This document shows positions 807-6,020 of a stretch of 35,462 bases of DNA, in pieces. The notes below the pieces were generated by a model, which was not told where the DNA came from, searched no databases, and saw only the letters and a program-made list of their open reading frames with translations. Positions within the stretch are counted from its first letter, which is position 1. Every line of letters begins with the position of its first letter. The position numbers and the translations under genes are program-made. The stretch comes from a virus. The stretch covers positions 1 through 35,462 of the IMG/VR virus record IMGVR_UViG_3300035179_000039, one strand, 5' to 3'.

Positions 807-3800
807 GTGAAAGTGGTTAGACCAACCTTCGCATTCGGGTCGACAAGCCGACAAAGAGCCCACGACCTGCGAGACACTGCAGTCAGCAGCAAAGCCTACA
901 TCGACTCCATCTACCCATGGTGGTGGGACGAACGAGAGTTTCCCCGAAGAGCGGTCATGACCGAATGGTTCTACAATCCGCTCAAAGGCCAGCCCCGCTA
1001 CGTCGACGTCTACCATCTCCGAAACATGGCCGCAAGCGAATGGGTCCACATGTGCACAAGCACCATCATCGAAGAAGTGTGTCAAGTCCCCTGGGAGCTG
1101 GTGCCCAAACGCCCAGAGCTACGTGAGTCGCCGCCCGAACAACTCCTCTGGCAGATAGAGGATCAGACCGAATTCTTCAACCGCTGCAACGAGAACAAGG
1201 AAACCCTGACTCACATCTTGCGAGCCCTGCTTCGAGACAGCCTGGAGCTGGACGCAAGCTGCCTCGTGAAAGGCTTCAGCGAACGCAGCTATGAACGGGT
1301 GCCAGAGGGCGGCTTTATCCTCAGACCCCGAGGCCAGCGAGAACTTGTGGAGCTGTTCGCTCGAGACGGCGGCAGCTTCATGAAGGAAACGGACGTGAAC
1401 GGCATCGAGCGCCGCTTCTGGCAGTACTCGTACCTGCACCCGGCCGTCGCCCCGATCGAGTTCGACACAGATGAGATCGCCTACGGCACGCGATATCCCC
1501 GCAGCTACAGCGTCTACGGCTGGTCCGAGCTGCAGAGCATGGAGACGATTCTGAACTGCCTCATCAACAGCGCTTTCACCAACGCCACCATGTTCCAAGA
1601 ATACGCCGTGCCCTCGGGCGTCATCAGCTTCCAAGGCTCTCTCGAGGACGAACGTAGGCTCAAAGAGTATTTCACCACCGAGATCAAAGGCCGCTTCCAC
1701 AAAGTGGCCGTGCTCAACAAGGACGCCACCTTCACGCCCATCACCATGTCGAACCGAGACATGGACTTCATCAACATGCAAAAGTGGTTTAGCAGGCTTT
1801 GCTGGGCTCTGTACAAGCTGACGCCGACCGAGCTGGGCTTCCAAGACGAGATCCGAGAAACCGGCAAGGCGATGGCTGCGCAAAGCAAACTGCAGAAACG
1901 GAAGGCCGTGATGCCTGCGCTCAAGCTGATCGAGATCGTGATCAACACGCAGGTCCTCAACGAGTTCACTGACGACCTGATCTTCCAGTTCCAGTACACA
2001 GACAAAGAAGAGGAATACGCGTGGGACGAGCTGTCACTCCAGCAGCTTGACCGAGGACTCGTCACAATCAACGAGCTGCGCAAGCGCCGGAAAATGGGTG
2101 CGCCAGTCGGCTGGGGAGACCTGCCTTTCCAGCTCACCCTTGCAGGAGCTCGGCCGCCAGCCATGGGCGCACCGCCTGGGCAGCAGTCTCTCGGAGAAAC
2201 CGACATGCAGGACAACGACATGGGCAAGCAGGTGTGGGGCGGCCGCAGCACCGAAGAATACGACTTCCGAACAGACATTCCTCAGAACGTTCGCGCGTTG
2301 AACCCGTCCAGCGGTCGCTACGAGCCAGTGAAGATAGGTAACAAGTTTGACAAACGTGAACTTGAGAAAGCCGTGAGCCTCATCGAGAAGAGCTTTCAGT
2401 ACCGTCTGCAGGCGCCCCGAAAGAAGCCGCTTGACCCCTACGAAGTGCACCTAGTGCAAAACCAGATCGCCAGGCTCAAAGCGGCGATCGGAAAGATCCG
2501 CTACCCCATGGGCGCCCTAGGACCGATGGGCACCAAGCCCGACCCGCCCAGTCGAGACGGCATGCTGCTGCCGGGCGAACAGAAGCCTCGCGACGTCGAG
2601 AAGCCTCTTGGACCGAACCAGACTCCAGCGCCTTACCGCACCGGACCCTACGATCGATACCGGGGCGGAGAACAGCCAAGTAACGAGTTTGCAGGCGGAC
2701 ACGGAGCGCACAGGTGGGAAAGAGACAACACGAACATGCGAGTCAAGCCTAGCGAACGAACGGATCCACGTGGCCTAGCACCGCCTCGGAAGCCCACAGT
2801 GCCTTATCTTGACGCAGAATACCAGATCGTGCCCACGCCGAAGATTCCAGTCGGACCCAAGTACCCCCGAGACGTGCCCCCAGTGCACGGCGCCACAGGC
2901 ATGCCTCGCAAGCCTCTCACAGACGAGGAAGAAGGCGACCAAGTGGATGAGTTCACTCCTGAGGGTGTGAGGCCGAAGGGATGGGTAACTATTGGCGGTC
3001 GGCCTGTGCTCATCGGAGAAGAAGATGAAGACGGAGCGGAAGCAGGAAAAGCGCCAAAAGGCACCAAGCTGGAAGGCACCTATTACCGAGGCAGCACCGA
3101 TGGCAAATATCGAGAGTTCAGCTACTTCACCAAGGAGCAAAGGGAAGCGCAGGTGTACGCTGAGGCGAAGGGCGGCAAGGTGTCCGAACACGATATCAAG
3201 GCGCAGAATGCTTTGAAGGCAAACGACATCTGGCACGCGGGAAAGAAGCTGGGCATTCCATTCGACCGAGACAAAGATGACCCTACGAAGGTGCGGCTGC
3301 AAATTCTGAATACCGCTAAGAAGCAAGGCTACGATGCCATCGATATGGACACTTGGACTGTCGCTATCAAACCTGATGTGGTGAAAGAAACTCGAATCTT
3401 GAAGACCAAGATGACTCCGCCTCTGCCGAGCATGGGCGGCAGCAAGTACCGTCAAGTCAAATTTCTTCGTTCAATCATGCCTGAGAAGCTGGGGCTGTAC
3501 GTGGAGCCTTTCGCAGGCGGCGCCGCCCTGTTCTTCGGGCTGCCTGAGAAGCCTGCGCAGGCGGTGCTGAACGACAAGGACCCGTCTTTCCCTACGTTGT
3601 GGCGATGGATCCAGCAAGCCACACCGGAGCAGATCGAGGACCTAAAGAAGCGTCCATGGACGGCTGAGCGAGACGACTTCTTCCGGGCTAAGGACGAGTT
3701 CAAGCCCCGCAGCCTTCTTGACCGGATCTGGCAGATCCTGTACGTTACGAGACATAGCTTCAGGAACAGCAGGCGCACTTGGCGAGGCGAAGACCGAAAA

Positions 3801-4544
3801 GGCACTCACAGAAACGGCATGCCGCAATGGATCAACAGGATCGACCAGTACCGGGAGCGGTTGCAAGGCGCCACGATTGAAAACAAGGACTGGAAAGAAG
3901 TCATGCAAGAGCACGATGGGCCGGACACGTTCTTCTACATTGACCCGCCCTATGAGCAGGAGTTTGCTAGGCAGCTGCCGGCGGTGCTGGACCGAACCAA
4001 GGGCAAGTGGCTGCTCAGCTTCGGAGAAGACGAGACGCTGCAGCGAGAGCTGGAGAAACGAGGCTTCCACGTCAAGGCGCTGAACGTCACCAACATGATC
4101 AACAAGCCTGATGCAGCCACACGCACCATGCGCCAGGAGATGCTGGCCGCCAACTACCCGCTCGAGTTCGATGGCGACGTCACCTTCAAGTTCGTGGACA
4201 CCGACGTCAGCATGAAACAGCTGTTCTTCTCTGAGGGACGCGTGGTGACCAAAGGCGTGCATGACCATGAGCAAGCCCTCTCAGACAGATTGAAGCTGCT
4301 GATCCGACAGGTGCACACCGGCGCCCTAGGAAAAGAGCAAGCAGCCATCGAAGCCAAAGCAGCGATCGACCACCACATTCTGCAGGGCGTGAAAGAGGCG
4401 ACTGAAAGCGCCGTCGCCCGACAGCTCAAGAAGGAGCAAGTGACCTTGCCGCCGGAAGCCATGGCTCGAATAGAACGCCAGGCGGCGCAGCACATGGAAG
4501 ACTTCATGCGAATCTTGGGAGATGCAGAGAATGCCCAAAAGTAG
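807..4544 (+). CDS. Portal fused to ART-like domain, D12 adenine methyltransferase and helical tail
   Basis: A 1245-residue protein starting with GTG at 807 (MKVVRP). Residues 1-440 look like a portal protein: the stretch FSRLCWALYKLTPTELGF followed by a long helix KAMAAQSKLQKRKAVMPALK is the usual portal stem and crown signature. Residues about 440-745 are a Pro/Gly-rich linker. Residues about 750-865 resemble the ADP-ribosyltransferase-like domain of phage polyvalent proteins (TYYRGS, FSYFT, a conserved-looking QNAL, KKQGYDAIDMD). Residues about 875-1130 are a D12-class DNA adenine methyltransferase, with EPFAGGAALFFG (SAM binding) and YIDPPYE at 3939-3956 (catalytic DPPY). The last 95 residues are helical and may be the N-terminal part of a MuF protein. 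An ordinary portal is roughly 400-550 residues. No frame break is seen, so this is either a true fusion or a precursor cut by the prohead protease. Confidence 0.88.
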   Translation: MKVVRPTFAFGSTSRQRAHDLRDTAVSSKAYIDSIYPWWWDEREFPRRAVMTEWFYNPLKGQPRYVDVYHLRNMAASEWVHMCTSTIIEEVCQVPWELVPKRPELRESPPEQLLWQIEDQTEFFNRCNENKETLTHILRALLRDSLELDASCLVKGFSERSYERVPEGGFILRPRGQRELVELFARDGGSFMKETDVNGIERRFWQYSYLHPAVAPIEFDTDEIAYGTRYPRSYSVYGWSELQSMETILNCLINSAFTNATMFQEYAVPSGVISFQGSLEDERRLKEYFTTEIKGRFHKVAVLNKDATFTPITMSNRDMDFINMQKWFSRLCWALYKLTPTELGFQDEIRETGKAMAAQSKLQKRKAVMPALKLIEIVINTQVLNEFTDDLIFQFQYTDKEEEYAWDELSLQQLDRGLVTINELRKRRKMGAPVGWGDLPFQLTLAGARPPAMGAPPGQQSLGETDMQDNDMGKQVWGGRSTEEYDFRTDIPQNVRALNPSSGRYEPVKIGNKFDKRELEKAVSLIEKSFQYRLQAPRKKPLDPYEVHLVQNQIARLKAAIGKIRYPMGALGPMGTKPDPPSRDGMLLPGEQKPRDVEKPLGPNQTPAPYRTGPYDRYRGGEQPSNEFAGGHGAHRWERDNTNMRVKPSERTDPRGLAPPRKPTVPYLDAEYQIVPTPKIPVGPKYPRDVPPVHGATGMPRKPLTDEEEGDQVDEFTPEGVRPKGWVTIGGRPVLIGEEDEDGAEAGKAPKGTKLEGTYYRGSTDGKYREFSYFTKEQREAQVYAEAKGGKVSEHDIKAQNALKANDIWHAGKKLGIPFDRDKDDPTKVRLQILNTAKKQGYDAIDMDTWTVAIKPDVVKETRILKTKMTPPLPSMGGSKYRQVKFLRSIMPEKLGLYVEPFAGGAALFFGLPEKPAQAVLNDKDPSFPTLWRWIQQATPEQIEDLKKRPWTAERDDFFRAKDEFKPRSLLDRIWQILYVTRHSFRNSRRTWRGEDRKGTHRNGMPQWINRIDQYRERLQGATIENKDWKEVMQEHDGPDTFFYIDPPYEQEFARQLPAVLDRTKGKWLLSFGEDETLQRELEKRGFHVKALNVTNMINKPDAATRTMRQEMLAANYPLEFDGDVTFKFVDTDVSMKQLFFSEGRVVTKGVHDHEQALSDRLKLLIRQVHTGALGKEQAAIEAKAAIDHHILQGVKEATESAVARQLKKEQVTLPPEAMARIERQAAQHMEDFMRILGDAENAQK
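1910..1931 (+). repeat. 22-bp direct repeat, copy in portal gene
   Basis: These 22 bases, coding for the portal segment MPALKLI, recur exactly and in the same orientation at 33643-33664, upstream of the fibre-like gene. A match of this length is not expected by chance in 35 kb. Confidence 0.85.
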
Positions 4545-4838: not shown

Positions 4839-6020
4839 TTGAGGAACCGCCGTGAAAGGGTGCCTTGGAGTGTGCTACATATAGCTGAAGAACCGGATTT
4901 CTGGAAGAGCCTAGATGGGCTGCTGATGCGCATAGATCTGCTGGCGCAGAACCTCGCCTGGAAGTCCTACAACGAAGCCATGCAGGAAACCCTGCGCTTC
5001 GAAGGCGTCACCTGGGTGGAATGGGTCTCAGACTACACGCAGGACCCGGCGAGAGGACCATGCCTCTACTGTGATTCGCAGTCCGGACGCCGCTACCGCC
5101 TAGGCCAGTTTCTGCCTTCGCTGCCTCATCATCCGAACTGCCTACCGGGGAACGCTCTTGTATCGTCCAGTCACAGGATCACGGGTGCTACGAAACGGGC
5201 ATACGATGGAAATGTTCTCATCATCCAAACAGCCACGGGTGACCCTCTTTCCGTCACGCCAAATCACCCTATACTCACACCGCATGGATGGGTTCCTGCC
5301 AGCTTCCTGAATAAAGGCAGCTACGTAGTCTGCCAGCGCAGAAGTGAGTCTATCTTGTCCAGTAATGGGAATCATCAACAGATGCCAACCCCTATTGAGA
5401 ATGTAGCGAATGCGTTTCTCATGATGCCGACGACGCTTCGCAGCAAAGTGCCAACCGCCGCCAAAGATTTCCATGGCGACGGACGGAACGGCGAGGTCGC
5501 AATTGTAGGGACCAATCGCCACTTGATGCCTAACAGAGATGCCTCGGTCAACAAGCATCTGCGCAAATTGGCGTTCATGGAGAGAGATGCCGCTCTGATG
5601 GGTCTCCACAGTCTTGGCCAATTGCAGTTTCTCAGAAAGACTCTTCTTTCGACCACGAGTAGCATCATGAGCCGCACGAACCTGTGCAGCTCGTTGCTCG
5701 GGATTCATCTGGCGCCATTTCAGGAGTCCTGCTTCATGGCGACCACGGATCGGTACGTTGGCTTGAATCAGACGCGCTCGAACCGTTCCTCGGTCGACCT
5801 TGAAGTGCTTCGAAACCTTCTTCTCCGAGATGCCGGAAACATATTCTTTGATGAGATTGTCGATGTCGGCTGGAGAAAGTTTCATGGTCACATCTACAAC
5901 TTAGAAACATCGGCGGGCTATTTTAACGCTTCCGACATAATCGTCTCTAACTGCAAGTGTGACTGGGCTCCAATTCTTCCGACAGAAGAGGAATATGTTC
6001 GCAAAGGCATATTTCCCTAA
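4839..6020 (+). CDS. MuF-type minor head protein interrupted by an intein
   Basis: The 393-residue precursor carries a 271-residue intein (5139-5951). The spliced product would be 122 residues ending in the MuF/SPP1-gp7 signature: CLYCDSQSG, then LPSLPHHPN joined to CKCDWAPI. In this family the HPNCxC motif closes the fold of the minor head protein that sits at the portal vertex. The start is uncertain: TTG at 4839, or GTG at 4860 preceded by a GAGG at 4841. The ordinary family N-terminal helices are not here; the end of the portal fusion may supply them. No membrane segments. The antisense strand of the intein encodes a nuclease (5142-5885). Confidence 0.88.
   Translation: MRNRRERVPWSVLHIAEEPDFWKSLDGLLMRIDLLAQNLAWKSYNEAMQETLRFEGVTWVEWVSDYTQDPARGPCLYCDSQSGRRYRLGQFLPSLPHHPNCLPGNALVSSSHRITGATKRAYDGNVLIIQTATGDPLSVTPNHPILTPHGWVPASFLNKGSYVVCQRRSESILSSNGNHQQMPTPIENVANAFLMMPTTLRSKVPTAAKDFHGDGRNGEVAIVGTNRHLMPNRDASVNKHLRKLAFMERDAALMGLHSLGQLQFLRKTLLSTTSSIMSRTNLCSSLLGIHLAPFQESCFMATTDRYVGLNQTRSNRSSVDLEVLRNLLLRDAGNIFFDEIVDVGWRKFHGHIYNLETSAGYFNASDIIVSNCKCDWAPILPTEEEYVRKGIFP
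5139..5951 (+). other. Intein (Hint-domain protein-splicing element), 271 residues
   Basis: Cys1 is at 5139-5141, opening block A (CLPGNALVSSSHRITG). Block B contains TPNH at 5256-5267 followed by PILTPHGWVPA. The C-terminal blocks are FHGHIYNLETSAGYFNASD and IIVSN, with Asn at 5949-5951, followed by the +1 extein Cys at 5952. The penultimate residue is Ser and not the usual His. There is no LAGLIDADG domain in the sense frame. The central region holds KDFHGDGRNGEVAIVGTNR, which I recall as characteristic of inteins in phage MuF proteins; that recollection was not checked against a database. The endonuclease appears to be supplied by the opposite strand. Confidence 0.9.
5142..5885 (-). CDS. 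Vsr/DUF559-like homing endonuclease encoded antisense within the intein
   Basis: About 247 residues from ATG at 5885 (a GTG two codons upstream, at 5891, is possible); a GTGA sits just upstream as a weak ribosome site. Residues about 8-50 form a helix-turn-helix (GISEKKVSKHFKVDRGTVRA), followed by a basic linker. Then comes a PD-(D/E)XK/Vsr-like core: SLHERQFAQMLVDRG, HQVAIGPYNCDLAV and SVAMEIFGGGWHF, with candidate catalytic Glu in LHERQ, Asp at 5496-5498, Glu at 5469-5471 and a following His, and a basic helix (KRRRHHEKRIRYILNRGW). The C-terminal YRVIWRDGKRVTRGC is a further strand pair. The whole gene lies inside the intein, its codons exactly opposite intein codons. Vsr-like (EDxHD) nucleases are known homing enzymes. 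Confidence 0.85.
   Translation of the reverse strand: MKLSPADIDNLIKEYVSGISEKKVSKHFKVDRGTVRARLIQANVPIRGRHEAGLLKWRQMNPEQRAAQVRAAHDATRGRKKSLSEKLQLAKTVETHQSGISLHERQFAQMLVDRGISVRHQVAIGPYNCDLAVPSVAMEIFGGGWHFAAKRRRHHEKRIRYILNRGWHLLMIPITGQDRLTSALADYVAAFIQEAGRNPSMRCEYRVIWRDGKRVTRGCLDDENISIVCPFRSTRDPVTGRYKSVPR

Follow-up and report, generated by a model that had tools for sequence, protein, structure and literature searches.

Canonical inteins such as PI-SceI comprise the Hint blocks A, B, F and G, with the DNA for the nuclease lying between the two Hint halves. Among group I introns, homing endonuclease genes in antisense orientation are known, e.g., in Dsq.L2066 (PMC9548176). Out-of-frame HNH insertions have been described on the same strand as the host gene and without a splicing domain (PMC11855218), in a report that cites a preprint on actinobacteriophage inteins of non-canonical architecture (10.1101/2025.01.02.630785). 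For phage homing endonucleases, an added DNA-binding module has been described (PMC3943268), and the antisense protein reported here is alike in this respect. The individual parts, i.e., inteins, EDxHD endonucleases, and antisense intron nucleases, are therefore known. A nuclease encoded antisense to an intein is apparently undescribed, since no description was found in the searchable literature; the preprint may cover examples from Gordonia.

The window analyzed here is the complete IMG/VR virus record IMGVR_UViG_3300035179_000039 (35,462 nt). Judging from sequence comparisons and predicted structures, its MuF gene very probably contains a mobile intein whose own homing endonuclease gene is carried on the other strand of its DNA. 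The features of the locus are:

4839–6020, plus strand: ORF of a MuF-type minor head protein gene, split by an intein (the exteins of relatives are annotated as minor head or MuF protein)
up to 5138 and from 5952, plus strand: N-extein and C-extein, respectively
5139–5951, plus strand: class-1 intein of 271 aa, with Cys1, TPNHP (block B), GHIYNLET (block F), Ser-Asn271 and Cys+1
5139–5339, plus strand: N-terminal half of the Hint domain (blocks A and B), opposite the C-terminal tail of the nuclease; sense wobble constrained
5340–5828, plus strand: sense middle, open, poorly conserved and mostly predicted to be disordered
5829–5951, plus strand: C-terminal half of the Hint domain (blocks F and G); in relatives this DNA is also the putative antisense promoter, ribosome-binding site and start codon
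5142–5891, minus strand: predicted homing endonuclease gene, 249 aa (stop 5142–5144; start GTG 5889–5891 or internal ATG 5883–5885)
5757–5873, minus strand: helix-turn-helix, antisense residues 7–45
5292–5585, minus strand: Vsr/EDxHD-like nuclease domain, antisense residues 103–200
5920–5949, minus strand: weak sigma-70-like promoter candidate, TAGAGA-18-TAAAAT, 9 of 12

The sequence-only reading of this DNA had described the sense frame as a complete Hint intein open over 271 codons, and each of its hallmarks (Cys1, TPNHP, GHIYNLET, Asn271 and Cys+1) was found. The sense translation matches Pfam Intein_splicing (PF14890; E value 2.9e-5, under the Pfam gathering score), and its profile matches the solved inteins 2jmz (E value 6.6e-11) and 2imz (E value 1.5e-10). 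Inteins were also the best Foldseek matches of the sense model, with a probability of 1.00 but E values of just 1e-3 to 1e-2. In the AlphaFold model (pLDDT 68), residues 1–70 and 235–271 form a confident Hint domain, and the middle is uncertain and mostly disordered. The description of a complete sense Hint domain is thereby upheld, but it does not extend to the middle, where approximately residues 110–230 include no folded conserved domain. Nor did Pfam reveal a nuclease family match in the mostly low-confidence sense middle, and a sense-frame nuclease of the kind present in inteins with an in-frame endonuclease was rejected for want of such a match. The sense middle is probably a mere translated linker facing the nuclease gene, leaving a mini-intein as the contribution of the sense strand and the nuclease as that of the antisense strand. 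Among 105 distinct inteins (identical copies removed), the terminal Asn and Cys+1 are present in all 105 and residue 1 is Cys in 104, as it is in the window; within the block B motif TPNHP, H43 is invariant in 67 sequences. Direct reading of the sequence indicates that the codons of the sense DFHGDG motif, taken on the other DNA strand, encode the catalytic strand of the antisense protein.

The host gene was assigned through its relatives. The Pfam domain PF04233 is present in an intein-less relative (L128), while the spliced extein of the window, which is short, gave no Pfam match. Upstream, positions 807–4544 encode a single 1245-aa ORF with matches to phage portal (PF04860), a weak ART-PolyVal (PF18760), and D12 adenine methyltransferase (PF02086), apparently an unusual portal-ART-methylase fusion.

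The sense (4839–6020) and antisense (5142–5891) ORFs are both open, and their codons face each other exactly. The antisense product matches the Pfam MTES_1575 nuclease (E value 7.8e-6), again under the gathering score; because this holds for both Pfam matches, the case rests on the family rather than on these two matches. The proposal that the antisense frame encodes a helix-turn-helix and a Vsr-like nuclease is borne out by its AlphaFold model (pLDDT 91.7; 81 sequences), in which a helix-turn-helix and a helical linker are joined to an alpha-beta nuclease with the Vsr/EDxHD fold. Using VIA-align, Vsr (PDB: 1cw0) ranked first (Z 11.2, rmsd 2.5, 113 residues) and I-Bth0305I (PDB: 3r3p) third (Z 10.1, rmsd 2.9, 94 residues), and the antisense profile matches 3r3p with an E value of 1.3e-4. 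Across 97 sequences, Y129, D132, E141, and R160 are invariant, and conservation reaches at least 90% for both E106 and H148, the latter being a candidate for the His of the EDxHD motif. Both E106 and D132 align with the motif region of 3r3p (E, N-x-D, A-x-E).

Both translations have many database relatives. Using tblastn, the antisense protein alone identified 122 phage records and the sense protein 125, nearly all at the same places on opposite strands, and a 187-aa antisense core, trimmed of the Hint-N overlap, recovered the same set. The exact codon-facing register noted in the window recurs unchanged in all intact intein loci that were compared. Since separate tblastn searches with each frame find nearly all the same loci, and the register is constant among the intact ones compared, the arrangement is more than chance. 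From phages and prophages, 105 distinct inteins (identical copies removed) have each of the two frames intact; the phages with matches have hosts such as Salmonella, Escherichia, Klebsiella, Pseudomonas, Vibrio, Gordonia, Mycobacterium, and Rhodococcus. A single peptide pattern retrieved 302 relatives from IMG/VR, and no match was returned when viral contigs were scanned with the antisense protein as the only query. The arrangement also occurs in bacterial genomes or bins, among them Gemmatimonadales, Rubellimicrobium, Chitinophaga, Micromonospora, Ornatilinea, a Firmicutes bin, and Scytonema. These sets of related loci favor those carrying the core motif, and as the loci share ancestry, locus counts do not equal independent events; disjoint pairs in the codon-position comparison and, in the final comparison of regulatory signals, representatives with <60% identity were used to lessen this effect. 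A sequencing artefact was rejected, given recurrence in more than 100 loci.

No homologous intein with an intact sense frame and an antisense frame broken by stops was found. The sole broken case, GE_vB_HIL (L025), is an UNVERIFIED record in which both frames are frameshifted, and Gordonia phage Keitabear, which was picked as likely to lack the antisense frame, possesses it. At three loci (L018, L019 and L125) the antisense frame is short or N-terminally truncated and the intein is still open; these are possible stages of nuclease decay. In Salmonella phage sam (L130:1718–2119), an antisense ORF43 is annotated within the intein, and gene callers choose pieces of either strand.

We propose that the sense strand is translated together with the capsid protein, and that the two Hint halves assemble into one fold that would splice out, with the stretch between them a passive linker. 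The antisense strand would serve as a separate gene for the helix-turn-helix and EDxHD (Vsr-like) nuclease, which would cut an intein-less MuF gene near the HPN^C codons, whereupon repair would copy the intein into the break. Expression, splicing, cleavage, and homing of the intein and nuclease are what we infer from the sequences. In many relatives a putative promoter (an extended -10 in block G), a ribosome-binding site, and a start codon (in block F) all lie inside the intein, so that the unit would be self-contained.

Comparison of occupied and empty sites is in keeping with mobility. The Jersey-type N-extein is present in 303 phage records, and two relatives that were fetched, JNS02 and TS3, are intein-less and differ from S55 by an insertion of exactly 816 bp at HPN^C. 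JNS02 (L127, around 2140–2160) has the variant target CATTTTGGCTGT in place of CAYCCTAACTGY, which is possibly a resistant site. The inteins of Salmonella phage S55 and Escherichia phage Snoke share 95% DNA identity, compared with 67% over the 485 aligned bases of the 5' part of the gene, and the intein moves horizontally between phages. The exteins of Gordonia phages Vivi2 and ViaConlectus share 84% identity and their nucleases 32%; thus, more than one intein has occupied this site. In three Acinetobacter phages, the nuclease has a free-standing copy, labeled a hypothetical protein in the annotation, that is convergent with an intein-less MuF gene and overlaps its end (L014:1306–2199). This copy retains a C-terminal tail like the one which faces Hint-N elsewhere, and its sense register has 12 stop codons. 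It constitutes a natural control, in which the constraint on the sense strand vanishes when there is no intein.

Homing endonucleases that cut the DNA of competitor phages are known, and matches to the nuclease core are confined almost entirely to MuF inteins or sites adjoining MuF. The antisense protein might accordingly serve another role, e.g., that of excluding competitor phages through cuts in their genomes at MuF, with the intein sheltering it. Exclusion and homing would share one and the same cut and are inseparable by sequence, but the transfers observed are what homing predicts, and we regard a role of this kind as unlikely.

The expression signals bear on whether the nuclease is still active. 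In most relatives, the putative antisense start codon lies directly opposite the His codon of block F, and this His is encoded by CAT in 57 of 73 cases (31.8 expected). The Leu of YNL is CTC in 57 of 86 (20.6 expected; z 10.4), which on the antisense strand reads as GAGGTT ahead of the ATG. In block G the codons spell the extended -10 TGNTATAAT at 20 of 94 loci, as against 0.8 expected from synonymous resampling, and on a promoter reading the antisense transcript would start approximately 7 nt after TGCTATAAT. Of the 38 perfect TATAAT boxes, 27 share one and the same distance from the end of the intein; TATAAT, a Shine-Dalgarno sequence, and a start follow one another at 18 of 81 loci with <60% identity (0.58 expected). 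A perfect TATAAT is absent from about two thirds of loci, mainly in GC-rich genomes, and for these loci promoter use is putative. The promoter scan of the window returned one promoter-like site, with 0.8 expected by chance in the scanned region; neither a clear Shine-Dalgarno sequence for the antisense gene nor the strong extended -10 of its relatives was found there.

With its weak promoter and ribosome-binding site, and with truncated versions in some relatives, the antisense gene of the window's phage could be a dead or dying relic, left by an old invader of a mini-intein that has lost homing. Against this, the window frame is intact and retains the catalytic-type residues E106, D132, E141, and H148, and both purifying selection across the family and recent transfers favor activity in the family; a relic seems quite improbable. 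Our preferred reading is still that of an intein with its own antisense homing endonuclease gene.

To see which frame is under selection, codon positions were compared in disjoint locus pairs, every locus being used once. In the intein middle, sense position 1, i.e., the antisense wobble, is more variable than sense position 3 (36 of 36 pairs; Wilcoxon p 2.9e-11), whereas the exteins have the pattern of an ordinary gene, with position 3 more variable than position 1 in 31 of 36 pairs. Thus, the intein middle evolves as an antisense gene, and the purifying selection on the antisense frame that the sequence-only reading would predict is present in homologous inteins. Both wobbles are constrained in the N-terminal half of the Hint domain: at 55–70% sense identity, 37% of Hint-N codons differ at position 3 against 60% of extein codons, the extein value coming from three pairs. 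This fits real dual coding of Hint-N, including the C-terminal tail of the nuclease. No sense stops were found at 81 loci gathered by the antisense frame (313 expected from extein codon usage) and no antisense stops in a 24-locus panel mixing loci found by either frame (154 expected), both versions being less biased than stop counts made within the antisense HMM match, which are partly set by construction. Within the 50–70% band, the antisense protein is 57% and the sense protein 38% conserved. It might be argued that the antisense frame is a mere shadow of sense conservation, because codon-facing frames are often open in GC-rich genes, where their stops arise only from the rare codons TTA, CTA, and TCA, but this can be dismissed as extremely improbable: the codon-position pattern of the middle is the opposite of that left by sense selection and refutes it there, the antisense protein is the better conserved of the two, is modeled with the higher confidence and matches independent nuclease families, and its frame is intact in low-GC phages as well (GC down to 0.39).

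Taken together, selection on both frames, the predicted folds, the intein-less alleles, and the horizontal movement largely support the two-strand selfish element that was proposed from the window. It is likely, with somewhat less assurance than for the element itself, that such elements are widespread, and that the DNA of the splicing motifs doubles as promoter, ribosome-binding site, and start of the antisense nuclease within a fully overlapping unit of 0.8 kb. As proteins the intein and nuclease are unlinked; as DNA they are inseparable. A possible reason why the nuclease is hard to lose is that stops or deletions in one frame tend to strike the other. The locus provides a clear and comparatively testable case of a long, fully antisense gene overlap, in which both folds are identified and the functions are likely, and which is retained across many divergent lineages. 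Many deposited phages of Salmonella, Klebsiella, Pseudomonas, and Gordonia carry the nuclease gene unannotated; therefore, surveys which translate only the sense strand will label these inteins as endonuclease-less. The capsid morphogenesis protein of Escherichia phage Snoke (MK931441) contains an intein of the same family; in this record the sense intein is annotated and the antisense nuclease is not.

In comparison with known systems, the antisense protein resembles I-Bth0305I and Vsr in its catalytic fold and motif region, but I-Bth0305I is encoded by an intron, and the antisense nuclease gene instead faces an intein with which it shares all of its DNA. The insertion in ShiLan likewise hides an endonuclease while keeping the host frame open; it is, however, an HNH enzyme that shares the strand of its host gene and lacks a splicing domain, whereas the MuF nuclease is Vsr-like, on the opposite strand, and accompanied by a Hint domain. 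In Dsq.L2066, as here, a homing endonuclease gene lies opposite a self-splicing host element. Group I introns, however, splice as RNA and their sense strand need not be open, while the MuF intein needs both strands to be open. The MuF intein also has the Hint blocks and the nuclease DNA between the Hint halves in common with canonical inteins, but where their nuclease is a domain of the intein polypeptide, that of the MuF intein would be a separate protein encoded by the other strand.
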